The notes under the pieces: generated by a model
The model's database searches: none
Told to the model about the DNA's origin: nothing
What the model saw: only the letters and a program-made list of their open reading frames with translations
Program-made: the position numbers and the translations under genes
Assembly (NCBI RefSeq): GCF_001570605.1
Contig: NZ_BBXG01000008.1
Span: forward strand, 358,119-422,118
Length of the DNA stretch: 64,000 nucleotides
Direction: 5' to 3'
Source: Herbidospora cretacea
GTDB lineage: Bacteria > Actinomycetota > Actinomycetes > Streptosporangiales > Streptosporangiaceae
Part shown: in pieces, positions 4,722-42,066 of the stretch
Layout: the number at the start of each line of letters is the position of its first letter
Position numbering within the stretch: position 1 is the stretch's first letter

Positions 4722-4914
4722 CCCCCGATCCTAGGAGGGTCCGCAACGGCTTTTTCAGTCGGCATAAACTCTCGATAAATGGCATACTTTCCCAGGTCAG
4801 GACCGAAATGGGGATAATCGGCCAGCTTGACCCGTTCTGTTGCCGTATAGAGCGTGTATATCGATCGACCGGTAAGGTGCAGGACACCCCACGAGATCAC
4901 CCCCGAAGGTGGCG
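4722..4914. promoter_or_regulatory. Divergent promoter region of the DUF2087 and SARP genes
   Basis: This 193-base intergenic region is unusually A/T-rich for the window (stretches such as CATAAACTCTCGATAAATGG). It separates two divergent genes. It contains the direct repeat at 4844-4861 described separately, and GAAGG at 4905-4909 as ribosome site for the SARP gene. Confidence 0.6.
4844..4861. promoter_or_regulatory. Putative SARP box upstream of the SARP gene
   Basis: CGTATAG-AGCG-TGTATAT is a 7-base direct repeat separated by 4 bases, giving the 11-bp period expected for SARP-family binding sites. It lies about 55 bases upstream of the SARP start. A near-identical element occurs at 8515-8532 upstream of a secreted peptide gene. 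Because the core TATA is itself palindromic, orientation is ambiguous. Binding by the adjacent SARP is inference. Confidence 0.5.
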
Positions 4915-7900
4915 ATGAGGCTACGTGTTCTCGGTCCGCTCGACATCACGGTCGGCGGCGAACCCGTGCCGTTGCGGTCGGAGAAGCAGCGGCTCCTGCT
5001 GGCCGTGCTGATCGGCAACGCCAACGCCCCGACGACGGGCAGCCGCCTCATCGGCGCGCTCTGGGAGGAGCCGCCCGCGTCCGCGCACGAGAACCTCCGC
5101 CTGTACGTCTACCACCTCCGCAAGGCGCTCGGAGACCGCGACCGGGTGGTGCGCCACCCATCCGGATATGCCCTTTCGGTCGGGCCCGGCGAGCTCGACG
5201 CGGCCGACTTCGAGGCCCTGACGGCCGAGGGCGCGCGGGCGATGAACGGCGGCGACCCGGCGACCGGGCGGCGGCTGCTGGCCAGGGCGCTGGAGATGTG
5301 GCGCGGGCCCGCCTACGGGAACCTCGCCGACCACCCCGCCATCTGGCCCGCCGCGACACGGCTGGAGGAGGCCCGGTTACGGGCGGCCGAGCTGCGGATC
5401 ACCGCCGACCTCGCGCTCGGGCGTCACGAGGACCTCGTCGGCGAGCTCACCGCGCTAGTGGCCGAACACCCGACCCGGGAGCGGCTGCGGGCCCACCTGA
5501 TGCTGGCGCTCCATCGCGCCGGGCGGCGGGCCGAGGCCCTGGAGACCTTCCGCGAGGGACGGCGCGTCCTCATCGGGGAGCTCGGGCTGGAGCCCGGGGC
5601 CGAACTGCGGGCGCTGCACGAGGAGATCCTGCGCGGCGACTCCGGCGCGTCCGCGCCGCGCCCGGCCGAGCCCAAGAGCGGGCCGATGCTGTTCCCCACC
5701 CCGGCGCAGCTCCCCCACGACGTCGCCGACTTCGTCGGCCGGGCCGGGGAACTGGCCGAGCTCGACCGGCTGCTGGAGCTGCGGCAGCGCCAGGGGGTGC
5801 CCGCCTTCCTCGGGCTCACCGGGATGGGCGGCGTCGGCAAGACGGGCCTGGCCGTCCACTGGGCCCACCGGGTGGCCGGGCGGTTCGCCGACGGCCAGCT
5901 CTACGTCGACCTGCGCGGCTACGCCGAGGACGCCGAGCCGCTCGCGCCCCGCCAGGTGGTCGACCGGTTCCTGCGGGCGCTCGGCGTGCCGGGCAGCCGG
6001 ATCCCCGACGACATCGACGAGCGGGCCGGGCTGCTGCGCAGCGTGCTGTCGCGGCGGCGGGTGCTGCTCGTGCTCGACAACGCCCGCGACGCCGGGCAGG
6101 TGCGCCCGCTGCTGCCCGGCAGCCCCGGGTGCGCGGTCATGGTGACCAGCCGCGACGGCCTCGACGGGCTGGTGGCGCAGGAACGCGCCGACATCCTCCA
6201 GGTGCACACGCTGGGCGACTCGGAGGGCGTGGCGGTGCTGGCCGGGCTCGCCGGGGGCGCGGTCGACGCGGCCGATCCGGAGCTGGCCCGGCTGAGCGAG
6301 CTGTGCGGCGGGCTCCCGCTGGCGCTGCGCATCGCCGGGGCGCGGCTGGCCGGGCGCACCCGGCTCACGGCCGGAGTCCTGGCCGGTCACCTCGCCGACG
6401 AGCGGAACCGGCTCAGCGAGCTCAGCCACGGCGGGGTGCGGGTGCGGGCCAACTTCGGGCTCAGCTACCGCGACCTCGACCCGGCGGCGGCGGCGCTGTT
6501 CCGGCGGCTCAGCCTGCTGGGCGTGCCCGACTTCGGCGAGTGGGCCGGCGGGCCGCTGCTCGACATCGGCCGCGAGCCGCTCGGCGAGCTGTTCGAGCAG
6601 CTCGTCGCCGCGCAGCTGCTCGAAGTGGTGGCGCAGGAGGGCGCGGGCGGGGTCCGCTACCGCTTCCACGACCTGGTCCGGCTGTTCGCCCGCGAGCGCG
6701 CCCTGGAGGAGGACGACGCCGCCACCCGCGCCGACGCCATGGCCCGCTCGCTCGGCACCTGGCTGTCGCTGGCCCAGGAGGCCCACCGCCGCGAATACGG
6801 CGGCGACTTCGCCGTGCTGCGCGGCGCCACGCCCCGCCGGGCGCCCGATCCGGCGCTGGCCGACGCGCTGCTGGGCGAGCCGATCGAGTGGCTCGCCGCC
6901 GAGCGGGCCGGGCTCGTGTCGGCCGTCTCGCACGCCGCCGACCTGGGGCTGGCGTCGCTGGCCTGGGAGCTGGCGATGACGTGCGTGACGCTGTTCGAGG
7001 CGCGCAGCCTGTTCGACGACTGGCGCTCCACCCACGAGGTCGCGCTCGCCGCCGCCCGCGCCGCGGGCGACGCGCTCGGCGAGGCCGCGATGGTGTACGG
7101 CCTGGGCAGCCTGGCCCTCTTCCGCCAGGAGTACACCCCCGCGGCCGAACTGCTGGAGGACGCCTCGGCCCGCTTCGAGGGCGTCGGCAGCGACCACGGC
7201 GTGGGCCTGGCGCAGCGCAACCTGGCTCTGCTCGACCGCATCACCGGCACGCCCGAACGCGCCCACCACCGCTACAAGGAGGCCGCCGACCTGCTCAGGG
7301 AGGCCGGCGACCGGGCCGCCCAGGCGCACGCCGGGATCGGGCTGGCCCAGATCAGGCTCGAAGAGGGCGGGTTCGCCGAGGCCGAGTCCCTGCTGCGCGA
7401 CGCGCTGCGCACCTTCCAGGACATCGGCAACCGGCGCGGCCAGGCGCAGGCGCTGTTCCGGCTGGGCGACGCCTACATCCGGCAGGACCGCCCCGAGCCC
7501 GCCCGCGACGCGTTCGCGGCGGCGCTGCCGCTGGTCCGCTCGATCGGCGACCTCGTCGGGGAGGCCTATCTGCTGCGCGGCCTCGGCCAGGCGCAGCTCG
7601 CCTCCGGGGAGCGGCCGGAAGCCGAGACGTCGATGAAGGCCGCCGTCGCCGCCGCGCAGCGGGTCGGCGACCAGTTCGCCGAGGCCAGCGCCTCGCTGGG
7701 GCTCGGTTCCCTCTACGAGTCCGGCGACGACCTCGCCGCCGCGGTCCCCCACCTCGAACGAGCGGTGACGCTGTTCGCCGAGATGGGCAACCCGACCTGG
7801 CGGGCCCGCGCAATGGACGCCCTCGCCGTCACCCTCCGCAGGTCGGGTGACGAGGAGGCCGCGCGGGCCCTGTGGGAGACGGCCCACTCCCTGCTGGCCG

Positions 7901-7959
7901 GCCTCGACTCCCCCGAGGCCGCGAAGCTGGCGGCGAGGCTGACCCCTCGCCCCGAGTAG
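4915..7959 (+). CDS. AfsR/SARP-family transcriptional regulator (SARP DNA-binding, BTAD, NB-ARC, TPR)
   Basis: This 1014-residue large SARP begins MRLRVLGPLDITVGGEPV, the OmpR-like winged helix (about 1-95). A bacterial transcriptional activation domain follows (about 100-245), then an NB-ARC ATPase with Walker A GMGGVGKTGLA near residue 305 and VLLVLDNARD as Walker B, then a C-terminal array of TPRs (about 660-1000). Such proteins activate secondary-metabolite or developmental genes. I chose ATG at 4915 because GAAGG lies five bases upstream; in-frame GTG at 4909 lacks a ribosome site. Codon 155 is the rare TTA (5377-5379), a hallmark of bldA-dependent regulators. The likely local targets are its own promoter and the small peptide genes downstream. 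Confidence 0.93.
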   Translation: MRLRVLGPLDITVGGEPVPLRSEKQRLLLAVLIGNANAPTTGSRLIGALWEEPPASAHENLRLYVYHLRKALGDRDRVVRHPSGYALSVGPGELDAADFEALTAEGARAMNGGDPATGRRLLARALEMWRGPAYGNLADHPAIWPAATRLEEARLRAAELRITADLALGRHEDLVGELTALVAEHPTRERLRAHLMLALHRAGRRAEALETFREGRRVLIGELGLEPGAELRALHEEILRGDSGASAPRPAEPKSGPMLFPTPAQLPHDVADFVGRAGELAELDRLLELRQRQGVPAFLGLTGMGGVGKTGLAVHWAHRVAGRFADGQLYVDLRGYAEDAEPLAPRQVVDRFLRALGVPGSRIPDDIDERAGLLRSVLSRRRVLLVLDNARDAGQVRPLLPGSPGCAVMVTSRDGLDGLVAQERADILQVHTLGDSEGVAVLAGLAGGAVDAADPELARLSELCGGLPLALRIAGARLAGRTRLTAGVLAGHLADERNRLSELSHGGVRVRANFGLSYRDLDPAAAALFRRLSLLGVPDFGEWAGGPLLDIGREPLGELFEQLVAAQLLEVVAQEGAGGVRYRFHDLVRLFARERALEEDDAATRADAMARSLGTWLSLAQEAHRREYGGDFAVLRGATPRRAPDPALADALLGEPIEWLAAERAGLVSAVSHAADLGLASLAWELAMTCVTLFEARSLFDDWRSTHEVALAAARAAGDALGEAAMVYGLGSLALFRQEYTPAAELLEDASARFEGVGSDHGVGLAQRNLALLDRITGTPERAHHRYKEAADLLREAGDRAAQAHAGIGLAQIRLEEGGFAEAESLLRDALRTFQDIGNRRGQAQALFRLGDAYIRQDRPEPARDAFAAALPLVRSIGDLVGEAYLLRGLGQAQLASGERPEAETSMKAAVAAAQRVGDQFAEASASLGLGSLYESGDDLAAAVPHLERAVTLFAEMGNPTWRARAMDALAVTLRRSGDEEAARALWETAHSLLAGLDSPEAAKLAARLTPRPE

Positions 7960-7990: not shown

Positions 7991-8182
7991 TCAGCCGTTG
8001 GGCGGACGCTGGTTGCCCCAGTGCATGTTCGGGTCGGGCTTGATGGTGCAGGTGCCCTCCGAGTCGATCTCGCACGGAGGCACCGGCGGGCCCGCCGGCG
8101 CCGCGAGAGCCGGGCCGCTGACGGCTCCCAGCACCCCGGTGGTCAGTGCGGCGGCGACCAGCGCCTTTTTGATCTTGTGCAT
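7991..8182 (-). CDS. Small secreted peptide 1, NMHWGN family
   Basis: This 63-residue protein starts MHKIKKALVAAALTTG and has a clear Sec signal peptide with an ALA cleavage site near residue 28. The mature part is about 35 residues, Pro-rich, with two Cys and the motif NMHWGN near the C-terminus. It is a paralogue of the next gene upstream (signal peptide core LGAVSGPALA against LGAVSAPASA, and the same NMHWGN). I know no family for it. GGGGGAACGG precedes the ATG. It is probably co-transcribed with 8275-8469. Confidence 0.72.
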   Translation of the reverse strand: MHKIKKALVAAALTTGVLGAVSGPALAAPAGPPVPPCEIDSEGTCTIKPDPNMHWGNQRPPNG

Positions 8183-8225
8183 GTCCGTTCCCCCGTCGAA
8201 GTTGAGATTCCAGCACTCGTTCCAC

Positions 8226-8263
8226 CGCGACCGCCGCCGGCCCCCGTCGCGACGGCGGTCGCG
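8226..8263. terminator. Strong hairpin between the two peptide genes
   Basis: CGCGACCGCCG (8226-8236) pairs perfectly with CGGCGGTCGCG (8253-8263) around a 16-base loop. It lies downstream of peptide gene 2 and upstream of peptide gene 1 (minus strand). There is no T-run, so it may attenuate read-through, stabilise the first transcript end, or act as a processing site. Confidence 0.5.
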
Positions 8264-8274
8264 TCCAGGAGCCG

Positions 8275-8469
8275 TCACGTGCCGTCGTCACCACCGCCAC
8301 CGGGACCCTTGCAGCCCTCGTTGCCCCAGTGCATGTTCGTGTCGCACACGCTGGCGGGCGGTGGCCACGGCGACCCGTCCGACCGGGCCGAGGCCGGGGC
8401 GCTGACCGCGCCCAGCGCGCCGGCGGTCAGCGCGAGGACGATCAGCCCTGCTTTCGTGCTCTTGTTCAT
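8275..8469 (-). CDS. Small secreted peptide 2, NMHWGN family
   Basis: The 64-residue product has the Sec signal peptide MNKSTKAGLIVLALTAGALG with an ASA cleavage site. The mature peptide of about 36 residues holds CDTNMHWGNEGC and ends in a Gly-rich acidic tail. The NMHWGN hexapeptide is flanked by two Cys (C-x2-NMHWGN-x2-C), which could form a disulfide loop. GGGGGAGCCGCC precedes the ATG. A SARP-box-like repeat lies 46-63 bases upstream. Function is unknown; size and export suggest a signalling, morphogenetic or antimicrobial peptide. Confidence 0.72.
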   Translation of the reverse strand: MNKSTKAGLIVLALTAGALGAVSAPASARSDGSPWPPPASVCDTNMHWGNEGCKGPGGGGDDGT

Positions 8470-8514
8470 GGGCGGCTCCCCCGTATGAGGTGAGACGCCA
8501 GCGTGGCACGCCGA

Positions 8515-8539: not shown

Positions 8540-9394
8540 TCATGGGCGCTGTACGGAGATCGCGACGTCCACCCCCAGCTCCGCGAGCTCCCGGACGGCC
8601 GCCGCGAGGACCGGCCGGACCAGCGGGAAGAGCCGTTCCGGCGGCACCGGCGTGGCGGTCAGGAGGGCGAACACCACCGACCGCGGGCGGAACCTGGTGC
8701 CGACCCGGCGGCGGCCCAGGCTCGCCGACTCGACCCGGCCGGCGAACCGGGCCCGCGCCTCCCGCGAGGTCGCCAGCGACCGGGCCGACTCCACCGCCCG
8801 CCGGACGGCGGACCCCAGGTCGGCGACCGTGGTGACGTGGACCAGGTCGCCGGTCTCGGTGAGCAGGTCGCCGAACTCGCCGCCGAGGGGCAGCAGGCCG
8901 GGGCGGAGGTTCCCGGCGTTGGCCGCGTAGGCGGCGGGCGAGTCGCCGGGGCGCCAGGCGGGCAGGTCGGGCCGGGTCCCGAAGAGAGGGCGGATCTCGT
9001 CGAGCGCGGCGGCCATGGCGGCGGGGTCGAGGGCGGACCAGTCGCCGTCGACCAGGGCCCACCGGTCGTCGACCACCGCCTGGAGCCAGGCCGGCACCCG
9101 GGCTCCCCCGATGTCCTTCGAGCCGGCGTACATGCGGATGGTCCCTGAACGGAGCGCGGCCACCCGCTCGCCCTCGCGCTGGAGCAGGACGCGCTGGAGC
9201 ACGTAGGAGAGGTCGACGCTGTCGCGGTTCCCCGACACGCTGCCGATTTTGACGCGGAAGCGGTCGGCCCGGGGCAGCGCGGCGCGGCAGGCGGGCGGCA
9301 CGACGATCTGCCAGGTCACGGCGTCGTCGCCGATCGCCGCGTCGAGACGGGCGTCGAGGACGGCCCGGGGTAAGGGGGGCTCGCAGCGGCTCAT
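8540..9394 (-). CDS. DUF6119/TIGR04141-like protein, short form
   Basis: This 284-residue soluble protein begins MSRCEPPLPRAV, with GAGGAA six bases before the ATG. The segment RWALVDGDWSALD ... LPAWRPGDSPAAYAANAG ... GEFGDLLTETGDLVHV, followed by a C-terminal strand-helix unit (SVVFALLTATPVPPERLF ... LAELGVDVAISV), resembles what I remember of the C-terminal half of the sporadically distributed TIGR04141/DUF6119 family. That family usually exceeds 500 residues, so this would be a short form. Codon 8 is a rare TTA (9371-9373). It diverges from the nuclease/helicase operon across 110 bases holding phased repeats, so the two are probably co-regulated. Assignment is from memory of the motif pattern and needs a profile search. 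Confidence 0.55.
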   Translation of the reverse strand: MSRCEPPLPRAVLDARLDAAIGDDAVTWQIVVPPACRAALPRADRFRVKIGSVSGNRDSVDLSYVLQRVLLQREGERVAALRSGTIRMYAGSKDIGGARVPAWLQAVVDDRWALVDGDWSALDPAAMAAALDEIRPLFGTRPDLPAWRPGDSPAAYAANAGNLRPGLLPLGGEFGDLLTETGDLVHVTTVADLGSAVRRAVESARSLATSREARARFAGRVESASLGRRRVGTRFRPRSVVFALLTATPVPPERLFPLVRPVLAAAVRELAELGVDVAISVQRP

Positions 9395-9504
9395 GAGGTT
9401 CCTCGTTTCTCGCGGTTCACAGTCGCAGAAGATAATGCTGGAATTTACTGGAAGCAACTGGAATAGCTTGGCTTTCCGTGGGGGCGCTGTTAAGGTGCGG
9501 AAAC
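9395..9504. promoter_or_regulatory. Divergent promoter region with 10-bp-phased CTGGAA iterons
   Basis: CTGGAA occurs at 9438-9443, 9448-9453 and 9458-9463, exactly one helical turn apart. A degenerate TTGGCT follows at 9468-9473, continuing the phase. Head-to-tail repeats on one face of the helix suggest cooperative binding of a regulator (BldC-like or the wHTH protein of the operon). AAGG at 9492-9495 is the ribosome site for the rightward operon. Confidence 0.6.
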
Positions 9505-10254
9505 GTGGATCTGGACGGGCTGGAAGAACAGATGGGAAAGCTGAGGACGGCCATCCGGCAGGCCACGGCGGCCGGACGGCACGCCGAGGCGCGGGCGCTG
9601 TGGGCCCGGTTGCGGGAGACCGAACGTCAGTGGGAGACCGCGGTCGAGCAACCCTCGGCCCAGCCCCCCCTGGTTCCGGTGCGCGAACAGGTCCACCGGG
9701 CGCTGACCCTGCTCGGCGCCCCGACCGCCGCGAAGATGATCGTCGCGGTCGACGAGTCGTTCTTCGGCGGCCAGATGGCCAACACCCAGCTCACCAGCCT
9801 CCGGCGGGACGAGGAGAAGTCCTACCGGTCGGCGCCCGGCGCGCGGCCCTACTACCTGTGCGCGGCGCTGACCTCCGAACTGCTGTCACCGGCCCGGGGT
9901 TTACTGGCGCTCAGCACGTGGGACCTGCCGCAGCGGATCATCGGGCCGCTGAGCCCCCGCACCGACTTCCTGACCTCGGCCGTCCGGCTCGCCGAACACC
10001 TGATGCGGCTGGAGAGCGCCTCGGCGGGGGCGTTCCGGCTGCTGGGGCAGCTCGCGCGGAACATCCCGGGGGGCGGCGACGCCTTCGGGCCGGCCGACCC
10101 GGCCAAGGTGATCGCCGCGGCGGAGGCGGAGCTGGCCGTACACCAGGAGAGGGATCAGATGGACAGGCGGGAGGCGGCCGCGCGGGCGGCCGACCGGCTC
10201 AAGCCGGTCGAGCGGCTCTTCGGTTCCGGGGTCAGGACGGTGAGGTCGGCGTGA
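9505..10254 (+). CDS. Unknown protein with coiled coil and winged-helix-like domain (candidate system gene 1)
   Basis: The protein is 249 residues long. Residues 1-50 form a charged helical segment (MDLDGLEEQMGKLRTAIRQA and on), probably a coiled coil. Residues 55-160 (VREQVHRALTLLGAPTAAKM, VDESFFGGQMANTQLTSLRR, ARPYYLCAAL) look like a winged-helix DNA-binding domain. The rest is helical. I chose GTG at 9505, with AAGG nine bases upstream; GTG at 9478 is possible. Codon 133 is TTA (9901-9903). The stop overlaps the nuclease gene start (GTGA). It may recognise DNA or RNA for the nuclease-helicase pair, or regulate the operon. No family recognised. Confidence 0.75.
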   Translation: MDLDGLEEQMGKLRTAIRQATAAGRHAEARALWARLRETERQWETAVEQPSAQPPLVPVREQVHRALTLLGAPTAAKMIVAVDESFFGGQMANTQLTSLRRDEEKSYRSAPGARPYYLCAALTSELLSPARGLLALSTWDLPQRIIGPLSPRTDFLTSAVRLAEHLMRLESASAGAFRLLGQLARNIPGGGDAFGPADPAKVIAAAEAELAVHQERDQMDRREAAARAADRLKPVERLFGSGVRTVRSA

Positions 10255-11324
10255 CCCGCCTCGACGCGATCCGGGGGCGCACCCCGGGTCAGGACCACAA
10301 CGCGCGCAGCATCGCCGCCCTCGCGGCGAACCCGGCGTGCGACCGGCGGGCGGTCCTCGACGCGGCGGCGATCGACAAGCCGCTGCTGATGAAGCGGCTG
10401 CGGTTCGACGACCGGTGGGGCCAGTCGCCGTTCGCGATCCAGCGCAACCAGCAGTTCACCGACCTGGTGAAGGCCAACGGCGCGGCCCACCTGCTGCGGC
10501 TGCTGCGCGGGCTGCTCGGCCTGCCGATCGAGGAGGCCGGTTACGTCAACCTCGAGGACGTCGGCGGGGCCGAGGGCCACGCCGCGCGCCACGGCCACAC
10601 CCGCCGGATCATCCGGCAGACCGCCGAGGGCCGGGGCCGGGCGACCATCCTCGACCGGCCGCTGCTGCGGCTCGACGTCGCGGGCGCGCGGGTCTACCTG
10701 GAGCCCGACGTCATCGCCTTCCAGCTCGGCGGAATGTTCCACATCGTGGCGATCAAGTCGTTCGCGATCCTCGACGACCAGGCCGACACCCCGAAGGTGT
10801 CGGCGGCGGCGCGCGAGGCGGCGGTCTACGTCCACGCCCTGCGTGACCTCGTGGGCGCCGACCTGGTCTCCCACGACGTGATCCTGATCTGCCCGAAGGA
10901 CTTCACCAACGAGCCGACGGCGACCACCGTCGACGTGCGCCACCAGCTCGTCACGCTGGCCCGCCAGCTCTCCCGGCTGACCAGGATCGACGCGATCCTC
11001 GACCGGCTGCCCGAGGGGTTCAGCCTCGACCTCGACCGGCTGTCGCCCGGCGAGATCGAGGCGGCGGTGGCCGCCGTCCCGGCCCGCTACGCCCCGCAGT
11101 GCCTGTCGGCATGCGAGCTGTCGCATCTGTGCCGCAAGGAGGCCCACCTGAACGAGCAGGTCGACGCGCTGGGCCGGGTGGTCCGCGACGACCTGGGCGG
11201 CATCGAGTCGGTGACCGCCGCGCTGCGGGTGGCGACGCCGGGCGAGCCGGTGGCCGCCGACCAGGCGGAGATCGCCGAGCGGCTCCGCCACGTCGCGCGC
11301 ATCTACGACGAGGCGGTCGCGTGA
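10251..11324 (+). CDS. Cas4/AddB-like PD-(D/E)XK nuclease with putative Fe-S cluster (candidate system gene 2)
   Basis: The 357-residue protein has the RecB/Cas4/AddB nuclease layout. One Cys lies near the N-terminus (Cys30, NPACDRR). A core strand LEPDVIAF carries Asp153, and the strand HIVAIKSF carries Lys169. A QxxxY-like helix follows (AAAREAAVYV, Gln replaced by Glu). A C-terminal triplet QCLSACELSHLCRKE holds Cys284, Cys288 and Cys294. One N-terminal plus three C-terminal Cys is the 4Fe-4S clamp pattern of Cas4 and AddB. The acidic residue of (D/E)xK is Ala167 (AIK), so catalysis may use a migrated carboxylate or be lost. Coupled by four-base overlaps on both sides. Fold is inferred by eye. 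Confidence 0.7.
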   Translation: MTRLDAIRGRTPGQDHNARSIAALAANPACDRRAVLDAAAIDKPLLMKRLRFDDRWGQSPFAIQRNQQFTDLVKANGAAHLLRLLRGLLGLPIEEAGYVNLEDVGGAEGHAARHGHTRRIIRQTAEGRGRATILDRPLLRLDVAGARVYLEPDVIAFQLGGMFHIVAIKSFAILDDQADTPKVSAAAREAAVYVHALRDLVGADLVSHDVILICPKDFTNEPTATTVDVRHQLVTLARQLSRLTRIDAILDRLPEGFSLDLDRLSPGEIEAAVAAVPARYAPQCLSACELSHLCRKEAHLNEQVDALGRVVRDDLGGIESVTAALRVATPGEPVAADQAEIAERLRHVARIYDEAVA

Positions 11325-12778
11325 GCCTGCTCCACTCCTACGTGAAGGTGCGGGCGCGGGAGCGGGGCCGGGCGCTGCCGCGCGCGACCGTGCGGCACGT
11401 CCACCTGGCCGAGGCGCCGATGGTGTTCGTGCCGCTGCGGCTGGCCGGGGAGGCCGCCGCGCCGCTGGGGGCGATGGTCGGCACCGATCCGCGCCACCCG
11501 ACGCTGCTCGTGGTGCCCCAGCCGCGCAACCGCGACCTGCGGTTCCAGTTCCTCGCGGACCTGGGGGCGGTGCTGCTGCCGTACATCGACCGGATCTCCC
11601 GGCAGGTCGAGACGGTCGAGGCGAAGACGCCGTTCGAGCGGTGCCTCGACGCGCCGCAGATCGTCGTGCCGAGCGCGGGCGGGGTCGAGTTCACCGCCAA
11701 GCTGGGGCGTTCGTCGCGGTTCCGGCGCACGACCGGGCCCTACGCCGTCGACCCGGCGGTGCCGGTGCTGGGCCGGTGGCTGACGTTCCTGGCCGAGCAG
11801 AGCGAGTTCGCCGGGTCGTCGCTGATGGTGGCGATGACCGACCTGCTGACCGCCCACTGGGTGACCGGCCAGAGCGCCGTGGAGGACGGCGACCTGGCCG
11901 CGCTGCTCGGCTGGATCGACCCGCCCGAGGGGATGACCGGGGCCGAGGCGGCGGCACTGGCCGACGACCCGCTGACCCCGCCGGCCGGGCCCGACACCCA
12001 TCCGGAGTTCGACCGGCAGGAGCTCCAGAAGGCGATCGCCCACTACGACGAGACCGGCTCGACCGGCCAGGTCGAGAAGGCGCTCGACGGGCAGCTGCGC
12101 CCGACGTGGGACCGGATGTGGCAGGCGATCGGGCTGCTCTCGGCGCTGAAGGAGTCGCCCGGCGCGACCTCCCGCTGGGAGCGCGACCGCGTCCACGTCG
12201 CGATGCACCGCGCCTGGATCGACGGCGGCGGCCTGCCGCAGGGCAAGCGCGACAGCGCGGTCGCGGCGGCCAAGCGGCTGGCCCGGCTGGAGGCGGCGCA
12301 GCAGTCGTTCGAGGCTGCCCGCGCCTTCGACGACCCGCTCGTCATGGCCGAATACCGGGCCGACGGGGTGGCGTTCGCGGGCGAGGTCGTGGCCGTCGAC
12401 CTGACCCGGCGCATCGTGCCGCCGGGCGGGAAGCGCGAGGTCCCGCGCCCCCTGGTGACGATCGAGACGTCCGATCCGGTACGCCTGTCGCGCGGCAAGA
12501 AGGTGAGATCGCCCTCCCGTCCGCGCCAGTCGGCGACGATCACCTCCCTCTCCGACCGGATGATCACCCTCCAGATCGACGACGGCATGGGCCGGGGCGC
12601 CCTGCCCGCCGAGGGCAGCGTGCCCGGGGTCGGGACCGTGATCTGCTACACCGAGCTCGACCCCGGCGAGTCGCGCCGCGCGCCGCTGCCGCCGCGCGAG
12701 GAGACGCCGTGGACCCACGGCGGCCCCCCGCCGGAATACGTCCCGACCGACGACGACGCCGTGGAGCCCTGGTCATGA
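11321..12778 (+). CDS. Unknown 485-residue protein, possible helicase-associated beta-barrel (candidate system gene 3)
   Basis: There is no signal peptide or membrane segment. The N-terminal half is mixed alpha/beta (VHLAEAPMVFVPLRLAG, TLLVVPQPRNRDLRFQFLAD). The middle is helical and charged (residues 225-345). The C-terminal 130 residues run as beta strands (GEVVAVDLTRRIV, RPLVTIETSDPVRLSRGKK, SATITSLSDRMITLQIDDG) like the beta-barrel that precedes the helicase core in Upf1/Dna2-type SF1 helicases. It may thus supply the barrel in trans to the helicase encoded next. GTG start overlaps the nuclease stop; its stop overlaps the helicase ATG (ATGA). No named family recognised. Confidence 0.72.
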   Translation: MSLLHSYVKVRARERGRALPRATVRHVHLAEAPMVFVPLRLAGEAAAPLGAMVGTDPRHPTLLVVPQPRNRDLRFQFLADLGAVLLPYIDRISRQVETVEAKTPFERCLDAPQIVVPSAGGVEFTAKLGRSSRFRRTTGPYAVDPAVPVLGRWLTFLAEQSEFAGSSLMVAMTDLLTAHWVTGQSAVEDGDLAALLGWIDPPEGMTGAEAAALADDPLTPPAGPDTHPEFDRQELQKAIAHYDETGSTGQVEKALDGQLRPTWDRMWQAIGLLSALKESPGATSRWERDRVHVAMHRAWIDGGGLPQGKRDSAVAAAKRLARLEAAQQSFEAARAFDDPLVMAEYRADGVAFAGEVVAVDLTRRIVPPGGKREVPRPLVTIETSDPVRLSRGKKVRSPSRPRQSATITSLSDRMITLQIDDGMGRGALPAEGSVPGVGTVICYTELDPGESRRAPLPPREETPWTHGGPPPEYVPTDDDAVEPWS

Positions 12779-14067
12779 CGCCCGCCGAAGCCGCCAGGGC
12801 GGCCACCGACACGATCCTGGCCGACTACACCAGCGCGTCCTCGCCGGGCCTGGTGGTCGACTCGCCCCCCGGGGCCGGGAAGACCACGCTGGTCGTCGAG
12901 ACGACCGCCGCCATCGCCGGCAAGGGCGAGCGGCTGATGATCGTGGCCCAGACCAACGAGCAGGTCGACGACCTGGTCGACCGCCTCGCGAGACGGGCGC
13001 CCGACCTCACCGTCGGCCGGTTGCACGCCGAGGGCTTCGACCCGCCCGAGCGGGTCCGCCGCCACGACTCCGTCACCACCGGCAGCAAGATCGCCCAGGT
13101 GGACGGCTGCCAGGTCGTCGCCGCCACCGCCGACAAGTGGGCCTACGTCGCCGACCGGAGCTGGCGCTGGGCCATCGTCGACGAGGCCTACCAGATGCGC
13201 TCCGACAAGCTCCTCGGCGTGGCCCGGCTGTTCGCCGACGGCCACGCCCTGTTCGTGGGCGACCCGGGGCAGCTCGACCCGTTCAGCGTGGTCGACAGCG
13301 AGCGGTGGACGGGCCTGAAGTGGGACCCGCTGCAGAGCGCGGTCGCGGTGACCCAGCGGCTCAACGGGCTGCGGACCCACCGGCTGCCGGTGTCGTGGCG
13401 GCTGCCCGCGAGCGCGGCCCCGATGGTGTCGGAGGCGTTCTACCCGGCGGGCGGCTTCACCGCCGGGACCGAGGACGGGACCCGGCGGCTGGAGCTGACC
13501 GTGCCGGGCCTGCGGTCGGTCTGGGACCGGACCGTGGAGATCGCCGCCTCCACCGGATGGGCGCTGCACGAGCTGCCCAGCCGCCACACCGTCCGCACCG
13601 ACCCCGAGGCCGCGCACGCCTGCGCCGAGATCGCCCGCCGCCTGGTCCAGCGCGGCGCGGTCGCCCACGACGAACACGGCTCCCACCCGGTGACGCCCGA
13701 CCGCATCGCGATCGGCTGCGCCCACAACGACCAGGTGGCGGCGGTCCGGCTGGCCGGTCCGCCCGAGGGCGTCACGGTCGACACCGCCAACCGGCTCCAG
13801 GGCCGCGAATACGACGTCACGATCGTGCTCCACCCCCTGTCGGGGCGGCGCGACGCGACGGCGTTCCACCTGGAGTCGGGGCGGCTGTGCGTGCTGACCT
13901 CACGCCACCGGCACGCGTGCGTGGTGGTGGCCAGGGCCGGGATCGCCGACCTGCTCGACCACCATCCGATGAGCCCCCGGGTGCAGCTCAACGTGCCGAT
14001 CAAGTTCCCCGACGGGTGGGCGGCCCACCACGCCGTGCTGGCACACCTGGAGAACTACAAGGCCTGA
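12775..14067 (+). CDS. Superfamily 1 DNA/RNA helicase (AAA_11/AAA_12-like; candidate system gene 4)
   Basis: This is a compact SF1 helicase of 430 residues. Walker A is SPPGAGKTT (Lys36), motif Ia MIVAQTNEQVDDL, motif II VDEAYQ (Asp136, Glu137), motif III FVGDPGQLDPF, motif V VDTANRLQGREYDVTIV, and motif VI LTSRHRHACVVV. The motif set is closest to Upf1/Dna2-like SF1B enzymes rather than UvrD. ATG overlaps the previous stop by four bases, so it is translated with the nuclease and partner proteins. The 3' end overlaps the convergent oxidoreductase gene by 13 bases. Likely role: DNA (or RNA) unwinding or translocation for the nuclease complex. Confidence 0.88.
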   Translation: MTPAEAARAATDTILADYTSASSPGLVVDSPPGAGKTTLVVETTAAIAGKGERLMIVAQTNEQVDDLVDRLARRAPDLTVGRLHAEGFDPPERVRRHDSVTTGSKIAQVDGCQVVAATADKWAYVADRSWRWAIVDEAYQMRSDKLLGVARLFADGHALFVGDPGQLDPFSVVDSERWTGLKWDPLQSAVAVTQRLNGLRTHRLPVSWRLPASAAPMVSEAFYPAGGFTAGTEDGTRRLELTVPGLRSVWDRTVEIAASTGWALHELPSRHTVRTDPEAAHACAEIARRLVQRGAVAHDEHGSHPVTPDRIAIGCAHNDQVAAVRLAGPPEGVTVDTANRLQGREYDVTIVLHPLSGRRDATAFHLESGRLCVLTSRHRHACVVVARAGIADLLDHHPMSPRVQLNVPIKFPDGWAAHHAVLAHLENYKA

Positions 14068-28431: not shown

Positions 28432-29052
28432 GTGCGGCGTGCCCTGTCCTTAGGTGCGGCTTCGATCGCCACTCTCGCCCTGCTCTCCACCCCCGCCTCG
28501 GCCACCCCTCCGGGCATCCCCTCCTACGCCACCGCCGTCAGCCAGCTCAACGCCCTGACCGTGGCCGGCGAGGCCAACGCCGGCTCCTACAACCGCGACC
28601 TGTTCCCGCACTGGAGCACCGTCTCCGGGGCGTGCAACACCCGGGAGCAGGTGCTCAAGCGCGACGGCACCGGCGTCGTGGTCAACTCCTCCTGCGCCGC
28701 GACCTCCGGCAGCTGGTACTCGCCCTACGACGGCGCCACCTGGAGCAACGCGGCCGACGTCGACATCGACCACATGGTCCCGCTGTCGGAGGCCTGGAAG
28801 TCCGGCGCGAACGCCTGGACCACCAGCCGCCGCGAGCAGTTCGCCAACGACCTGTCGAGCCCCCAGCTCTGGGCCGTGACCGACAACGTCAACCAGTCGA
28901 AGGGCGACAAGGACCCGGCGGCGTGGAAGCCGTCGAGGACCGCCTTCTACTGCACCTACGCCAAGTCCTGGATCACCGTGAAGTACAAGTACTCCCTGAA
29001 GCTCCAGTCGGCGGAGAAGACGGCCCTCAACTCGATGCTCGGCTACTGCTGA
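28432..29052 (+). CDS. Secreted HNH (DUF1524-type) endonuclease
   Basis: The 206-residue protein has a Sec signal peptide (MRRALSLGAASIATLALLST, cleavage after ASA). The extracellular domain carries the HNH/beta-beta-alpha-metal motif DIDHMVPLSEAW (catalytic His) and the downstream Asn in VTDNVNQSKGDKDP, as in the GmrSD C-terminal family. Five Cys suggest disulfides. It is a probable extracellular DNase for nutrient release or competition. Codon 7 is TTA (28450-28452), so expression may be development-dependent. The 3' end overlaps the convergent NRPS gene by 10 bases. Confidence 0.88.
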   Translation: MRRALSLGAASIATLALLSTPASATPPGIPSYATAVSQLNALTVAGEANAGSYNRDLFPHWSTVSGACNTREQVLKRDGTGVVVNSSCAATSGSWYSPYDGATWSNAADVDIDHMVPLSEAWKSGANAWTTSRREQFANDLSSPQLWAVTDNVNQSKGDKDPAAWKPSRTAFYCTYAKSWITVKYKYSLKLQSAEKTALNSMLGYC

Positions 29053-32000
29053 CCCCGCACCGCCAGGGGGCCGGTCCGTCCGGCCCCCTTCAGCATCTCC
29101 TGGCCGATCAGGTCGTCCGGGAGGGCGTCGGGGACCTGGTCGTCGAAGTACCAGAGCACCCGGATGAACCGGGACACCAGCACCGCCGTGGCCATGACCA
29201 GCGCGAACAGCACGTACATCAGCGCGATCCCGCGACCCTCGCCGGTGCCGATGACGAGCCCGACCGACCCGGCCAGCAGGCCCCCCTCGACCATCAGCGG
29301 TTCGAGCAGGGCGGTGCCGTAGGGGGCGACCAGGCCGTAGCCGAGGGGCAGGGTGGAGAAGGCGACGAGCTGGTTCAGCGCGAAGACCCGGCCGTGGAAC
29401 CGCTGCGGCACCTTGACCTGGATGATCGTGTTGTAGATGCCGTTCAGCACGGTCAGTGAGAAGAACATCCCGAACACCCCGGCGGCGATCACGACGAGGC
29501 TCTCGTGCGCCCCCACCACGACCGCGCCCGCCGACAGCGCCACCGTCGACCAGAGCTGACCCCGCAGGCGGCGTCTGCGCGGGCCGCCCCAGATGGTCAT
29601 GAGCAGGCCGCCGATGAAGACGCCCAGCCCGCCGGCGAAGGTGACCCGGCCGACGTCCTGGAGGTCGCCGAAGCTCAGCACGAGCGGCGAGACCAGCAGG
29701 AACAGCGGCGACATGAACAGGTTCACCACGGCGAAGAAGAGCAGCATGCTCCGGATGCCGCGGTTGCCCCACGTGAATCTCAGGCCGTTGACCAGCTCGG
29801 TGAGCAGCGGCTCGCGCCGCCGCCAGCCCATCGTCTTCGGGAACCTGACCAGCGTGACGGTGAGGATGGCGACCGAGTAGCTGACGACGTCGATGACCAG
29901 GATGCCGCCGAGCCCGACGACCGACATGAGCCCGGCCGCCGCCAGCGGCGGCACGAGGTTGGCCAGGCCGCCGACCATGCCCATGAGCCCGTTGGCGTGC
30001 CCGAGGAACCGTTTCGGCACGATCTGCGGGACCGAGGCGGCCCAGGCGACCCGCTGGAAGGTGAGCGCCAGCGAGAGCAGCACGAGCAGCGGGTAGACGT
30101 GCCAGACCAACAGGTTCCCGGTCCACACGAGCACGCCGAGCGCGAGCTGGGTGCCGCCCGCCGCGACGTCGCCGGCCAGGATGACCTTGCGCCGGTCGAA
30201 CCGGTCGACGACCGCGCCCGCGAGCGGCGCGGCCAGCATCCCGGGCACCAGCGCCAGGACGGAGAACAGCGCGAAGTTCACCAGCGAGCCGGTGGTCATG
30301 TAGATCCACAGCGGCAGCGCGAACTCGGTGAGCGCCGTCCCGGTGATGGAGACGAGCTGCCCGGCGGCCAGCGCGGCGAAGCGCTTCATGCCCGGCTTCG
30401 GCCCGACGTGGATCTCCCGGGGCTCCTCTCCCCGGGGCGCGCCGAGGGTCGACAGGCCCTCCAGCCACCAGGTCTCCTCGCCGGTGGTCCTCTCCAGGGT
30501 CTCCGTCGTGCCGTCGCCGATGGCGCGGTGGGTGTGGGTGACGATGGTGGCCAGTTCGTCGTTGCGGTACTTCACGAAGTAGTGGGCGGCCTCGTCGAGC
30601 ACCACGCAGGCGGTCGTCTCGGCCACGCAGTGCCATTCGCGGAAGCGTTCCTGGTAGTACTCCATCGCGGGGTCGCGCTCCCCCACCACCGCGATGACGG
30701 GGGCCGACAGGGGCGGCAGCTCCTGCTCGAAGACCTCGGTGAAGTACTCCTCGGCCTCCCGCGTGCCGGTCCTGCGGTTGGCCACGATGAGCTTGAGCTC
30801 CTCCTGATCGAACTCCGCGACGTCCAGACCGGCGGCCGACAGCGCGTTGATGCGGCCCTGGTCGCCGCCCAGCTCCTCCAGCCACTGGCCGACCCGGGAG
30901 AAGGGGCCCTTCGGGCGGGCGAAGGGGAACGCCCCGCCCAGGTAGACCGCCTCGGGGGCGCGCCCGGCCGCCTCCAGGTGGCGGGCCGCCTCGATGCTGA
31001 TCATGCCGCCGAGGCCGCAGTGGCCGTACAGCACGATCGGGCCGGGGACCTTGGCGAGGATCTCCTCGGCGTACTCGCGGGCGACCTCCTTCATCGGTCG
31101 GGGTTCCTCGCCCAGTTCGTTGCCCGGCACGGCCAGCGAGAACAGCGCCCAGTCGGCGGGGAGTGCGTCGGCCAGGGGCTTGTAGATGATCGCGCTGCCG
31201 CCGCCGTAGGGGGCGCAGACGACCGAGGCCCTCACCGGCCGTGAGGGGGTCAGGCGGTGCAGCAGGCCCGCGCTCCCGCGTTCGGCGGAGGGGTCGAGGA
31301 GCCGGGCCAGGTCGCGGACGGTCGGGTGCTTGAACAGGTCGAGCAGGGTCGCGACGTGCCCGGCCTTGCGCAGCCGGGCGACGACCTGCATGGCCAGCAG
31401 CGAGTGGCCGCCGAGGTCGAAGAAGTCGTCGGTGACGCTGACCCGCTCCAGGCCCAGCACGGCGGCCCAGATCCCGGCGACGAGCTCCTCCAGCTCGGTC
31501 TCCGGGTCGGTGAACTCGGCCGTCGGCTCGACGACCGCCGCCGGGTCGGGCAGCGCGCCCCTGTCGACCTTGCCGTGGGACTTGAGCGGCAGGCGGTCGA
31601 GCCAGACGTACCGCGCCGGGACCATGTAGTCGGGCAGGCGGTCCTTGAGCCGGCTCCGCAGCGCGGCGGTGTCGCCGGTCCCGGCCAGGTAGGCGACCAG
31701 GCGCTGGTCCCTCAGCTCGACCACGGCCTGCGCGACGCCCTCGTAGGCGCCCAGCAGGGTCTCGATCTCGCCGAGTTCGACGCGGTAGCCCCGGACCTTG
31801 ACCTGGAGGTCGCGGCGTCCGAGGAACTGGAGCTCGCCCGACTCCAGCCAGCGCCCCAGGTCGCCGGTCCGGTAGAGGCGGGCTCCGGGAGGGCCGTACG
31901 GATCGGGCACGAACTTCTCGGCGGTCAGCGCGGGGCGCCCGAGGTAGCCGCGGGCCAGGCGCGCGCCGCCGAGATGGATCTCGCCCGGCATGCCGATCGG

Positions 32001-34366
32001 GACCGGCCCGCCGTTGGCGTCGAGCAGGCGGACCGTCGCGCCCGGGAGCGGGCGGCCGATCGGGAGCAGGCCGCGTTCGGCGCCGACCTCGTGGGTGGTG
32101 ACGCCGACGGTGGCCTCGGTGGGGCCGTAGTGGTTGACGACCCTGACTCGGGTGGCCAGTTCGGCGGCCCATTCGGCCGGGGCCGCCTCGCCGCCGAGGA
32201 TGAGGAGCTTGCGGGGCAGCAGTTCGGCCGGCTCGGCCTCGGCCAGCAGCGCGGCCAGGTGGGAGGGGGTGATCTTGAGGTAGTCCGCCGGATAGATCTT
32301 GAAATATGCCGCCAGGTCGGGCGCGGCGGTCTTCGGCGGCAGCAGGTGCAGGCAGCCGCCGGTCATGAGGGACAGGTAGAAGACCGTGATGCCGAAGTCG
32401 AAGGCGAGCGACTGGAGCAGCGCGAACTCCGAGCCTGGCTCGACCGCGAACCGCTCGTGCACCCCGGCCAGGTAGACCAGCACCTCCCGGTGCTGCACCG
32501 CGACGCCCTTCGGGCGGCCGGTGGTCCCGGACGTGTAGATGACATAGGCCAGGTCGTCGGGGGTGACGCCGGTCTCCGGCGCGGTGTCGGCCCCGCCTCC
32601 GTCGAGGTGGATGCCGGTGACCCCCTCGGGCTGGAGCCCGGGGGTGGTCACCGCGAGGGTGATCCCGGCGTCCTCGACCATGTACGCGATCCGCGCCGCC
32701 GGCAGCTCCGGGTCCACCGGCACGTAGGCCGCCCCCGCCTTCAGCACGCCCAGGATCGCCACCGCGATGTCCACCGACTGCTCCAGGCAGACCGCGACCC
32801 GGTCACCGGGCCGCACGCCCCGGTCGAGCAGCCGCCGGGCCAGGTGGTTGGCCCGCCGGTCGAGCTCCCGGTAGGTGAGCGTGGCGTCGCCGAACACCAC
32901 CGCGGCGGCGTCGGAGACCGTGACGACCTCGTGCAGCAGCGCCGCCTCCAGCGGCTTCGGCGGGGTCGACTCCCCGAACTCCAGCACCCTGGCCGCCTCG
33001 TCGGCGGGCAGCAGGTTCAGCGTGGAGATCCGGGCCCCGGGGTCGGCCGCGATCGACCGCAGCAGCGTCGCGAACGACCCGGCCAGCCGTTCGACCGTGG
33101 CCGGGCGGAACAGGTCCGTGCAGTAGATGAACGACGCGCCCATGCCCTCGGGGCCCTCGAAGAGGTAGAGGGCCAGGTCGAAGCGGGCGGCCGTCACCTC
33201 GGCCGAGAAGCCGGTGACCTTGACGACGTCGGCCCCGGCCGGGCCGGTCTGGTAGTTCTGCAGCGCGAACAGCACCTGGAAGATGGGCGTCCGGCTGACG
33301 TCGCGTTCGACGTTGAGCTCGTTGACGAGCTGGTCGAACGGGAGTTCCTGGTGGGAGAAGGCGTCGAGCGCGGAGTCCTTCACCCGGTCGAGCAGCTCGG
33401 TGAAGGCCGGGTCGCCGTCGAGGTCGGCGCGCATGGCGAGGGTGTTGACGAACATCCCCACCAGCCCGTCGAGCTCGGGCTGGCCGCGCCCGCTGACGGG
33501 GGTGCCGATGGCGAAGTCGTCCTGCCCCGACCAGCGGCCCAGCAGCACCTGGAGCGCGGTCAGGAAGATCATGTACGGCGTCGCCCCGCGCGCGCTGCCC
33601 ATCTCGGTCAGCGCGGCCACCAGGTCGGCGTCGAGCCGGAAGGCGTGCTCGGCGCCCTTGGCGCTCTGCTCGGGCGGCCGGGGCAGGTCGGTGGGCAGGT
33701 CGAGCGGCGGCACGTGCGCGAGCCGGTCGCGCCAGTAGTCGATGTCGGCCTGGCCGACCCTGCCGCGCTGCCAGAGGGCGTAGTCGCCGTACTGGATCGG
33801 GAGGGGGGCCAGGTCCCGTCCGGCGACGCGGCTGAGGATGTCGCCGAGCAGCACGTCGCCCGACCAGCCGTCGGTGACGGTGTGGTGGGCGGCGAGCTGG
33901 AGCACGTGCTGGTCGGGGGCGAGCCGGACGAGCGTGGCCCGCAGCAGCGGCCCGGTGGCCAGGTCGAAGGGCCTGGCCAGCTCGGCCGAGATGAGCCGCC
34001 GGGCCTCCTCGGCGGTCTCCGCCTCGCGGACGGTCAGGTCGACGGTGGGCTCGTCGTCGATGACGAGCTCCGGCAGGCCGTCGTCGCTGGTGGTGAACCG
34101 GGTGCGCAGGGTCTCGTGGCGGGCCGTGACCTCCAGGAGCGCGTCGGCGATCTGGTCGGCGGTCAGCTCGCCCTCCAGCCAGACCGCGAACGGGACCGTG
34201 TAGGCGGTGGTCCCCGGCCGGTACTGCTCCAGGAACCAGAGCCGTTCCTGCGCGTGCGAGAGCGGCGGGACGACGCCCGGCTCCCGGGGCGTGATGACGG
34301 CCTTGGCGGTGCGGCGGCGGAGCCGCTGCTGGATGAGGGCCCGCTTGGCGGCGGAGAGGTCCTGGG

Positions 34367-34370
<4 letters not shown>
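29043..34370 (-). CDS. NRPS termination module fused to an MFS exporter: C-A-PCP-TE-MFS
   Basis: The protein has 1775 residues. The condensation domain (about 30-455) has an intact HHTVTDG. The adenylation domain (470-960) gives specificity residues, read by eye, of D-F-T-K-I-G-H-V-G-K, close to known Asp codes. The PCP has its Ser in GGHSLL at about residue 990. The thioesterase (1035-1300) has the nucleophile motif GHCGLGG, so Cys1118 replaces the usual Ser; Asp in GERDP and His in DEAAHYF complete a triad. Residues from about 1327 onward form a 12-helix MFS transporter with DRFDRRKV. It releases the product and probably exports it. ATG overlaps the preceding NRPS stop by four bases. Confidence 0.92.
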
Positions 34371-40684
<6,314 letters not shown>

Positions 40685-40749
40685 GCAGCCATCTCCCAGG
40701 GATGAAACAGGACTTCTCCGCGATCATGGACGTGGGCCACAATCGCGGG

Positions 40750-42066
40750 ATGACAGTGCCCGAACAGGCCGACAAGCGCCGCGCCCTCGTGGCCAAGCTG
40801 CTGGCGCGCAAGGCCGCCCCGCAGGGGGTCACCCCGGTTCCGCGGGACGGCGGCCCGCTCCCCTGCTCCCACGAACAGCGCCGCATCTGGCTCGCCCAGC
40901 AGTCCGACCCGGGCGCCGCGCCCAACGTGACGCTGGGCGTGGCCCTCTCGGGGCCGCTGGACCTCGCCCGGCTGGCCGGCGCGTTCGCCGCGCTGATCCG
41001 GCGGCACGAGGTGTTCCGGACGACGTACACGGAGGTGCCCGAGCAGGTGGTCCACGCGGCGCTGCCCGCGCCGCTGGAGTACCTGGACCTCGCCGGGCTG
41101 CCCGAACAGGCGGCCCTGGACCTGGCGCTGGCCAGGAGCGGTGAGCGCTTCCCGGTCGGGACCGGGCCGCTGCTGCGGCTGACCGTCTTCCGGGTGGGCC
41201 ACGAGGAGCACCGGCTGTTCCTGGTCTGTCACCACATCGCCGCCGACGGCGGCTCGCTGGGCATCGTCGCCGACGACCTCGCCGCGCTCTACTCGGGCCT
41301 GGACCGGCCGGAACCGCAGATCCAGTACGCCGACTACGCCGTCTGGTCGGTGCGCCGCGCCGAGACGAGGATCGAGGAGAGGCTCCCCTACTGGACCGAG
41401 CTGCTGAGCGGCGCGCCCGGCCCGCTCTTCGAGGGTGGCGGCGACAGGGGCGAGCGGGCCGGCGCGACGGCGGCCTTCCGGGTCGGCCGGGAGACGGTCG
41501 ACCGGCTGCGGCGCCTGGGCGACGGGGCCACCACGCCGTTCGTGGCGCTCTGCGCGGCCTACCTGACGCTGCTCCAGCGGATGACCGGCCGCCGGGACCT
41601 GGTCACCGGCATCGTGGCGGCCTCGCGCACCCGCCGGGAGCTGGAACAGGTCGTCGGCACGTTCGTGAACATGCTCCCGCTGCGCGTCGCGCTGCCCGCC
41701 GGGCAGGGGTTCGCCGCGCTGCTCACCCAGGTGAGGGAGGCCGCGGCGGGGGCGCTGGCCAACGAGATCCCCTTCGACACCCTGGTCTCGCGGGCGGGCG
41801 TGGCCCGGATCCCGGGCGTGCATCCGGTGTTCCAGACGTCGTTCATCCACCGGGACGACCCCCGGCCGCCCGCCACCTGGGAGGGCCTGACGGCCCGCGT
41901 CTGGGACCACGAGGTCGACGACGCCGCGCTCGACCTGATGCTGACCGCGACCCCGCGCGGCGACGAGTACGAGCTCGCCTTCACCGGCAAGCTTGACCGA
42001 TTCTCCGCAGGTCAGGTCAAGGAGCTGCCGGTCGTCTTCCGCGGGTTGCTCGACGAACTTCGCTGA
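40750..42066 (+). CDS. Stand-alone condensation-domain protein (intact HHxxxDG)
   Basis: This 438-residue free condensation domain has an intact CHHIAADGG (about residue 160) and C-domain landmarks PCSHEQRRIWLAQQ, RHEVFRTTY and GTFVNMLPLR. The N-terminus MTVPEQADKRRALVAKLLAR resembles the start of the neighbouring C-first NRPS. I therefore chose ATG 40750 over in-frame ATG 40702, which would leave only 17 bases to the divergent NRPS. It could complement the broken condensation domain in trans, or couple an acyl or amine group to the product. Confidence 0.85.
   Translation: MTVPEQADKRRALVAKLLARKAAPQGVTPVPRDGGPLPCSHEQRRIWLAQQSDPGAAPNVTLGVALSGPLDLARLAGAFAALIRRHEVFRTTYTEVPEQVVHAALPAPLEYLDLAGLPEQAALDLALARSGERFPVGTGPLLRLTVFRVGHEEHRLFLVCHHIAADGGSLGIVADDLAALYSGLDRPEPQIQYADYAVWSVRRAETRIEERLPYWTELLSGAPGPLFEGGGDRGERAGATAAFRVGRETVDRLRRLGDGATTPFVALCAAYLTLLQRMTGRRDLVTGIVAASRTRRELEQVVGTFVNMLPLRVALPAGQGFAALLTQVREAAAGALANEIPFDTLVSRAGVARIPGVHPVFQTSFIHRDDPRPPATWEGLTARVWDHEVDDAALDLMLTATPRGDEYELAFTGKLDRFSAGQVKELPVVFRGLLDELR

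Follow-up and report, generated by a model that had tools for sequence, protein, structure and literature searches.

A conserved gene cassette around an Upf1/Dna2-like helicase in filamentous actinomycetes, a candidate DNA-end-processing system

RESULTS

The locus comprises four overlapping genes and a divergent neighbour

We analysed a five-gene locus of Herbidospora cretacea at positions 8540-14067 of a 64,000-nucleotide stretch of contig NZ_BBXG01000008.1 (the window), which a prediction made from the sequence alone (the original prediction) had described as a nuclease/helicase set that might be an undescribed defence or DNA-processing system. Four genes follow one another on the plus strand: B (9505-10254, with an alternative upstream GTG start at 9478), C (10251-11324), D (11321-12778) and E (12775-14067). 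Indeed, as predicted, these genes are joined by start/stop overlaps, GTGA for both B/C and C/D and ATGA for D/E. The fifth gene, A (8540-9394, minus strand), is separated from B by 110 bp, and the phased repeats reported in this interval are three copies of CTGGAA spaced at 10 bp, which form an operator-like element (9438-9463, plus strand). The product of B consists of a helical hairpin followed by a middle part that we read as winged-helix-like. The C protein is PD-(D/E)XK-like; four of its cysteines are conserved, and its motif reads D..AxK. D has an alpha/beta N-terminal part, long helices (~228-337) and a C-terminal beta barrel (~351-444), the latter parts being a proposed stalk and 1B barrel. 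E is a compact SF1B (superfamily 1B) helicase core, in which the Walker A motif GAGK begins at residue 33.

The genes B to E form a coherent cassette. A scan of the genome_contigs collection with E gave at least 597 candidates, of which 591 were confirmed as relatives; the best 80 of these define the set of named loci, all of which carry actinomycete titles. H. mongoliensis and H. solisilvae are the nearest named relatives. The order C-D-E is contiguous (gaps ≤400 bp) in 70 of the 80 named loci and the whole B-C-D-E order is found in 63. Four-base overlaps are frequent where both genes are present, at B/C (34 of 65 loci), C/D (32 of 72) and D/E (33 of 74). The loci are related and partly duplicated, so these counts are not independent; for instance, L114 and L128 represent the same place, L091 is the window genome, and L139 and L140 are the two ends of one chromosome. 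Genes in the flanks were called with a home-made script based on G+C content at third codon positions (GC3) and validated by homology alone.

Helicase E and gene D occur in the same genomes

E is an Upf1/Dna2-like SF1B helicase, which bears out the original assignment. Its Pfam and profile matches identify an SF1 helicase (SMUBP-2, 3.5e-10; DNA2, 1.5e-7), and it aligns with the helicase of a fused TM0106-type protein over 344 columns with 98% probability (hhalign). Across 102 E proteins, Walker A is present in all, DEAY/F in 101 and the strict motif VI pattern in 59. Dna2 and Upf1 carry a stalk/1B region before motif I. The window E has 32 residues before Walker A, which leaves little room for such a region, and the stalk and 1B barrel are not in E.

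Gene D may supply this missing region. The AlphaFold2 (AF2) model of D has a mean confidence (pLDDT) of 89.4, and its best Foldseek match is Dna2 (5ean, E-value 8.8e-3, template modelling (TM) score 0.17); the top 23 matches also include 4b3g, 8ftm, 2xzl and 5eaw, that is, IGHMBP2, senataxin, Upf1 and a second Dna2 entry. We treat the stalk/barrel role of D as a lead suggested by its model and strengthened by the strict pairing of D with E.

D and E are strict partners. Among 393 genomes of the class, D (E-value ≤1e-3) is found in 76 and E (E-value ≤1e-60, a threshold picked to exclude other SF1 helicases) is also found in 76, and these are the identical 76 genomes; neither gene is listed in the other 317. 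The pairing extends to genomes in which the genes have separated. G124 has ~36 kb between D and E; one Micromonospora genome has C-D and E separated by 36 kb on one contig; and seven Micromonospora loci carry E without a complete cassette alongside, yet all seven genomes hold D, with two copies each in M. phytophila and M. musae. Both genes are under constraint, with ratios of nonsynonymous to synonymous substitution (dN/dS) of 0.10 and 0.12 for E and 0.14 and 0.24 for D in two comparisons each.

The D-E junction also accommodates other genes. In Micromonospora, L082 (7650-9947) and L079 (8944-9993) carry inserts between D and E that encode a GmrSD_N protein or a RhuM protein, and in L082 E is followed by two genes for type I methyltransferases. 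In L052, ~8.9 kb of other genes lie between D, which is upstream, and E. Four further Micromonospora stretches (L169, L172, L173 and L174) have C-D pairs without E, followed by a called gene of ~735-775 amino acids (aa); in L172 a 517-aa gene precedes it.

The cysteines of gene C are more widely conserved than its nuclease motif

C, which had been described as a Cas4/AddB-like nuclease, has a PD-(D/E)XK-like motif, but in the window protein the acidic residue of ExK is replaced by alanine, so that the window C is probably inactive as a nuclease. We aligned C from 138 stretches, comprising the window, 73 named-locus stretches, 21 from a paralogous group described below (clade 2) and 43 others, the last of which include duplicates and three Herbidospora, one being the genome of the window. 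All 137 comparison proteins retain cysteines 30, 284, 288 and 294, except for one gap at Cys30; these residues may hold an iron-sulphur (Fe-S) cluster. Of the 73 named-locus proteins, 58 have an intact D..ExK motif, as do 21/21 clade-2 proteins and 30 of the 43 others. Matches of C to the Pfam model PDDEXK_1 are below cut-off (4/28 members, best E-value 0.0092).

In the window subclade of the E tree, none of the 13 rows has a complete motif; some have lost D, some E and one both. Nevertheless, C in Herbidospora is still constrained (dN/dS 0.25 and 0.43), if less so than D and E. A further Streptomyces version, with the motif D..LxR, occurs in eight stretches (L113, L114, L128, L148, L150, L152, L153 and L154), and all six of these that were read have B together with operator-like repeats.

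These observations bear on a reading in which C-D-E is a regulated helicase complex that does not degrade DNA, with C as a structural Fe-S scaffold, and that acts, for example, in replication-transcription conflicts or in chromosome handling during sporulation. The varied substitutions throughout the window subclade, with the cysteines kept, would fit such a complex, as would the retention of Walker A in every E protein. However, the intact motif in most named-locus proteins and all clade-2 proteins makes catalysis look like the usual state, and we consider this reading unlikely. The loss of the motif in several lineages that retain the cysteines offers a case in which the conversion of a nuclease domain to a structural role can be tested.

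Phased repeats are linked to gene B

The CTGGAA repeats upstream of B are unique in the window genome. The three-repeat pattern (≤2 mismatches) occurs once in the window, compared to a mean of 0.00 over 100 shuffles, and once in the 8.28-Mb genome. Among 97 loci with B, 54 have three TGGAA-type repeats (≤2 mismatches) and 31 more have two (≤1 mismatch), for a total of 85/97. No phased repeats were found in the 26 loci without detected B (the first gene being C in 18, D in 2 and E in 6), nor in 121 control stretches farther upstream; the background of the pattern is 10 of 2460 random 330-base windows, with true sites unmasked, and 0 of 2460 shuffles. B often starts 19-20, 30-31 or 41 bp after the last repeat, in steps of about one helical turn, with exceptions. 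By eye, a putative TGnTA-type -10 element lies downstream of the repeats.

Since the array is conserved, linked to B and helically phased, we propose that B is its binder and probably controls the operon. The AF2 model of B (pLDDT 88.1) shows the helical hairpin and the part read as winged-helix-like. Identification of B by its fold was attempted and dropped, as a structure search with this model gave no useful match. Its profile matches, weak ones to the Rbsn coiled coil and one to WHD_HRQ1 (E-value 0.11), are all below cut-off, and B is undetected in some loci. The conserved operator, unique as it is in the window genome, gives a direct handle on the timing of operon switch-on.

Gene A is a neighbour of the cassette

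A is DUF6119/TIGR04141-like, as had been proposed, and passes both curated cut-offs: DUF6119 in Pfam with 57.7 bits (cut-off 27; profile positions 226-521 of 524) and TIGR04141 in NCBIfam with 44.2 bits (cut-off 35; positions 223-513 of 516). At 284 aa, it thus corresponds to the C-terminal half of the family. A full-length A (563 aa) occupies the same divergent position in Acrocarpospora catenulata (L016). The original prediction grouped all five genes in one system. A is found at the cassette locus in 7/7 Herbidospora, which together with the full-length Acrocarpospora copy would favour such a grouping, but whereas B to E are found together in most named loci, A is located near 3 of the 80. 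It was not found in the other 77; the sequence examined extends ≥3 kb ahead of the first cassette gene in 75 of the 80 named loci and less far in five. A also evolves faster (dN/dS 0.40 and 0.58 in two comparisons) and lacks the N-terminal half of its family. We therefore reject A as a member of the system and regard a five-gene system as very improbable.

Other genes around the window cassette are metabolic or regulatory in appearance, as read by eye with no defence-profile scan. Two tandem frames (7991-8480, minus strand) resemble small secreted peptides, each with an NMHWGN motif near its end, and adjoin a gene for an AfsR/SARP-type regulator (4909-7959). Farther away, at 29043-42066, there are large genes resembling non-ribosomal peptide synthetases (two minus-strand genes of 1775 and 2105 aa and a plus-strand gene of 454 aa), likely a biosynthetic cluster; these assignments were also made by eye.

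The cassette is inherited mainly within genera

The cassette is widespread in filamentous actinomycetes, although we found no name for it. E is present in 7/7 Herbidospora, and D in 142 of 150 Streptomyces or, with a clade-2 query, in 379 of 392. Strong E matches were obtained in 13 of the 31 same-family genera sampled. Flanking gene families c33-c37 are shared by nine of the ten mid-chromosome Streptomyces loci examined (L146-L154 lie outside this count); the tenth, L128, represents a different version. A tree of E with 102 rows, made by a quick method with long branches flagged, is broadly grouped by family and taxonomy: ten Streptomyces rows fall in one group, with L128 on a long branch, and the exceptions include Nonomuraea soli L077, which lies outside its own family, and Crossiella L090, which lies among Micromonosporaceae. 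Thus, vertical inheritance within genera predominates but many genera lack the cassette, a pattern that fits neither a mobile island nor a gene present in all. The set is patchy at the family level without being simply sporadic, and the genes are core and syntenic within some genera, not in all relatives.

A viral origin was considered and rejected, based on searches with D: none of 15 candidates in viral_contigs was confirmed, no clade-2 D was found in phage records, and viral structures gave nothing.

This distribution is relevant to a rival reading, in which the cassette is by itself a defence system against phages or plasmids and has become nearly fixed in Streptomyces and Herbidospora; B would sense foreign DNA, and C-D-E would unwind and degrade it. 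Patchiness at the family level is consistent with defence, as are the GmrSD_N and RhuM genes between D and E and the methyltransferase genes that accompany one of them, but the inserted genes show that defence-type genes enter this junction and are not proof of a defence cassette. Near-universal presence of D in Streptomyces, shared flanks, a tree that broadly tracks taxonomy and the failure to confirm D in viral contigs or phage records argue against it, as does the incomplete nuclease motif of the window lineage.

A paralogous clade adjoins SbcCD and often Wadjet genes

An association with defence genes is found in clade 2, which makes up 10 of the 102 rows of the E tree. Our clade-2 sample consists of 21 loci from 20 genomes or replicons and is not random, since the Streptomyces places were hand-picked; L135-L145 were placed in clade 2 by D identity (≥74%) rather than by the tree. 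Two copies are on plasmids. Others are near chromosome ends: at both ends in G471, G540 and G704, and less than 20 kb from one end in G508 and G355, while the copy in G523 is ~0.5 Mb from an end.

In all 21 clade-2 loci, a gene for SbcD divergently adjoins B, and in 20 of them the two lie 98-438 bp apart. SbcC was found in 20 (the exception being L142), and L112 has fragments of SbcC and SbcD. This SbcD is an extra copy, as a more distant SbcD is encoded elsewhere in 6/6 clade-2 genomes checked. Furthermore, 13 of the 21 loci carry the genes of the Wadjet system (Jet) downstream of E on the same strand, of type I in eight and of type II in five. E and JetA are 110-238 bp apart in 12 of these 13 loci; in the other, L127, a helicase gene with an HA domain intervenes. 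For L134, Pfam and PADLOC both confirm type II; typing of the other loci relied on tblastn. In the remaining eight loci there is no JetA within 7.3-9.4 kb downstream of E, and L137 has just a weak JetC2-like match on the opposite strand. Detection of SbcC and Jet genes relied on tblastn in stretches mostly of 20-30 kb or shorter, so that diverged genes could escape.

The HA-domain protein is a DEAD-type helicase, which is encoded in L127 (5794-8043), L131 (5672-7981) and L139 (2-1780), beside the clade-2 cassette or, as a 37%-identical relative, at a chromosome end. It recalls ttrA, as described at replicon ends in passages of PMC8743542.

We found no comparable arrangement for the window clade. 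Neither SbcCD nor Jet genes gave a match in the 21 other tabulated loci, type I queries found no Jet gene in the window, and in the L011-L090 stretches there are no Jet genes of types I or II, with SbcCD in L090 alone, in another arrangement. Nor is the link fixed from the side of Wadjet: type I JetA is above cut-off in 5 of 150 Streptomyces, and one of these five adjoins a listed cassette, so that the presence of Wadjet does not depend on the cassette. Wadjet is enriched at Streptomyces chromosome ends according to passages of PMC10482375, which make no mention of the cassette.

A link to plasmid defence is therefore supported for the clade-2 paralogue only. Its plasmid and chromosome-end copies next to type I or II Wadjet favour the stand-alone defence reading, whereas the context of the window cassette gives no support to the defence role originally suggested for it, and none of A to D matches a PADLOC model at E-value ≤1. 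On balance, we consider stand-alone defence unlikely. It is possible, although we hold this view tentatively and at well below even confidence, that the core cassette is a chromosomal DNA-end machine, a bacterial Dna2 made of three proteins, whose SbcCD-paired form has joined Wadjet near chromosome ends and on plasmids, where it would either resect and destroy the cut linear product as part of a composite immunity or shield the ends of the linear host replicon.

DISCUSSION

We consider the chances about even that C, D and E constitute one Dna2-like DNA-end-processing machine split over three proteins. E would be the ATP-driven motor, D would provide the DNA-gripping stalk and barrel missing from E, C would be the Fe-S nuclease module, and B would bind the phased CTGGAA repeats and control the operon. 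Such a machine might serve the chromosome of filamentous actinomycetes by processing DNA ends or stalled structures. In the window lineage, the nuclease centre would have decayed with the cysteines kept, leaving a translocase or helicase that perhaps hands ends to another nuclease; Herbidospora would then hold a motor-only or scaffold form, while clade 2 and most core copies keep the nuclease motif. In eukaryotes, a blocked end is first opened by Mre11-Rad50, and resection by a Dna2-type enzyme follows. Clade 2, which brings its own SbcCD, may follow the same division of labour. Wadjet cuts circular plasmids, and where clade 2 adjoins Wadjet the module could destroy the linear product. In Streptomyces, adnAB is reported to be essential (Zhang 2014, as cited in PMC5124664).

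Several results weigh against this machine. With respect to D, the Foldseek matches to stalk/barrel proteins have E-values of 8.8e-3 to 0.2 and TM scores of ~0.13-0.17, with no E-value below 0.001 and the aligned ranges not displayed, and unrelated barrel proteins such as ATP synthases score nearly equally. No profile match confirms the assignment: D gave no profile alignment with the fused nuclease-helicase, for which the profile comprised three sequences, and a comparison of D with a viral structure library gave nothing informative. With respect to C, the nuclease assignment is motif-based, as no Pfam cut-off is reached; in one scan HTH_20 (5/45 members, best E-value 0.0014) outscores PDDEXK_1 (1/45, 0.011); C likewise gave no alignment with the same three-sequence profile of the fused TM0106-type protein; and an attempt to identify C by PDB profiles returned designed repeat proteins and an unrelated weak match. 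Finally, the patchiness of the cassette among same-family genera is unlike that of a classical housekeeping system, and SbcCD adjacency is limited to clade 2 and Crossiella L090 and does not extend to the window clade.

Taking the sequence comparisons together, we favour DNA-end processing over stand-alone defence. If this is correct, a near-core machine of Streptomyces and their relatives has gone unnamed, the eukaryotic Mre11-Rad50/Dna2 pairing has a bacterial counterpart that is split over three proteins, and the clade-2 loci show what may follow Wadjet's cut. Judged by titles and the openings of abstracts in the open-licence literature, we recognised no description of the cassette, of a Wadjet-SbcCD-helicase linkage or of a split bacterial Dna2.

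Comparison with known systems

The claim that the set matches no named system stands. Named defence systems were searched for an identity in PADLOC 2023, Pfam and NCBIfam, and none matched. PADLOC gave matches for E only, among them MkoA of Mokosh (41.5 bits) and GajB of Gabija (16.5 bits), and the partner proteins of Mokosh and Gabija were not matched. No Pfam or NCBIfam family is matched above its cut-off by B, C or D. A match to PLuB_AAA of NCBIfam has 35.2 bits, far below the cut-off of 999, which gives no ground for assignment to PLuB.

Passages of PMC5704561 associate Cas4-like nucleases with helicases in settings that resemble repair or defence, but the helicases there are UvrD-like or COG1205, and the main text of that paper contains zero occurrences of 'Streptomyces' or 'actinobacter-'. 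Wadjet (JetABCD) of types I and II is a neighbour of most clade-2 cassettes; no Jet match was found near the window-type cassette, and A to E are not Jet proteins. Clade 2 and L090 also resemble the archaeal Mre11-Rad50 and HerA-NurA arrangement, in that helicase-nuclease-type genes stand beside Mre11-Rad50 genes, but HerA and NurA are of different families from the cassette proteins. The fused RecB-like nuclease-helicase of the TM0106 type (TIGR03491 plus an SF1 helicase) shares with the cassette only its helicase part. Descent of the whole cassette from such a fused protein was rejected, since E alone aligns with its three-sequence profile, and TIGR03491 was found in 0/7 Herbidospora and in 3 of 21 genomes searched.

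The cassette also has features in common with Dna2. It differs from Dna2 in that it consists of three polypeptides plus B, in that the nuclease motif is incomplete in several lineages, and in the cysteine spacing of C, which is Cx3Cx5C compared to Cx2Cx5C in Dna2. No fused Fe-S nuclease/1B/helicase protein was seen in the loci read, where the genes are separate, and no systematic search for fusions was made. Nevertheless, E matches the DNA2 and SMUBP-2 profiles, the top fold match of D is Dna2, if a weak one, and C has a C-x(n)-C-x3-C-x5-C set of cysteines and, in most relatives, a D..ExK-type motif. Dna2 itself is arranged as an Fe-S nuclease, a stalk with the beta-barrel 1B and two RecA domains, and the gene order C-D-E follows this order of domains.

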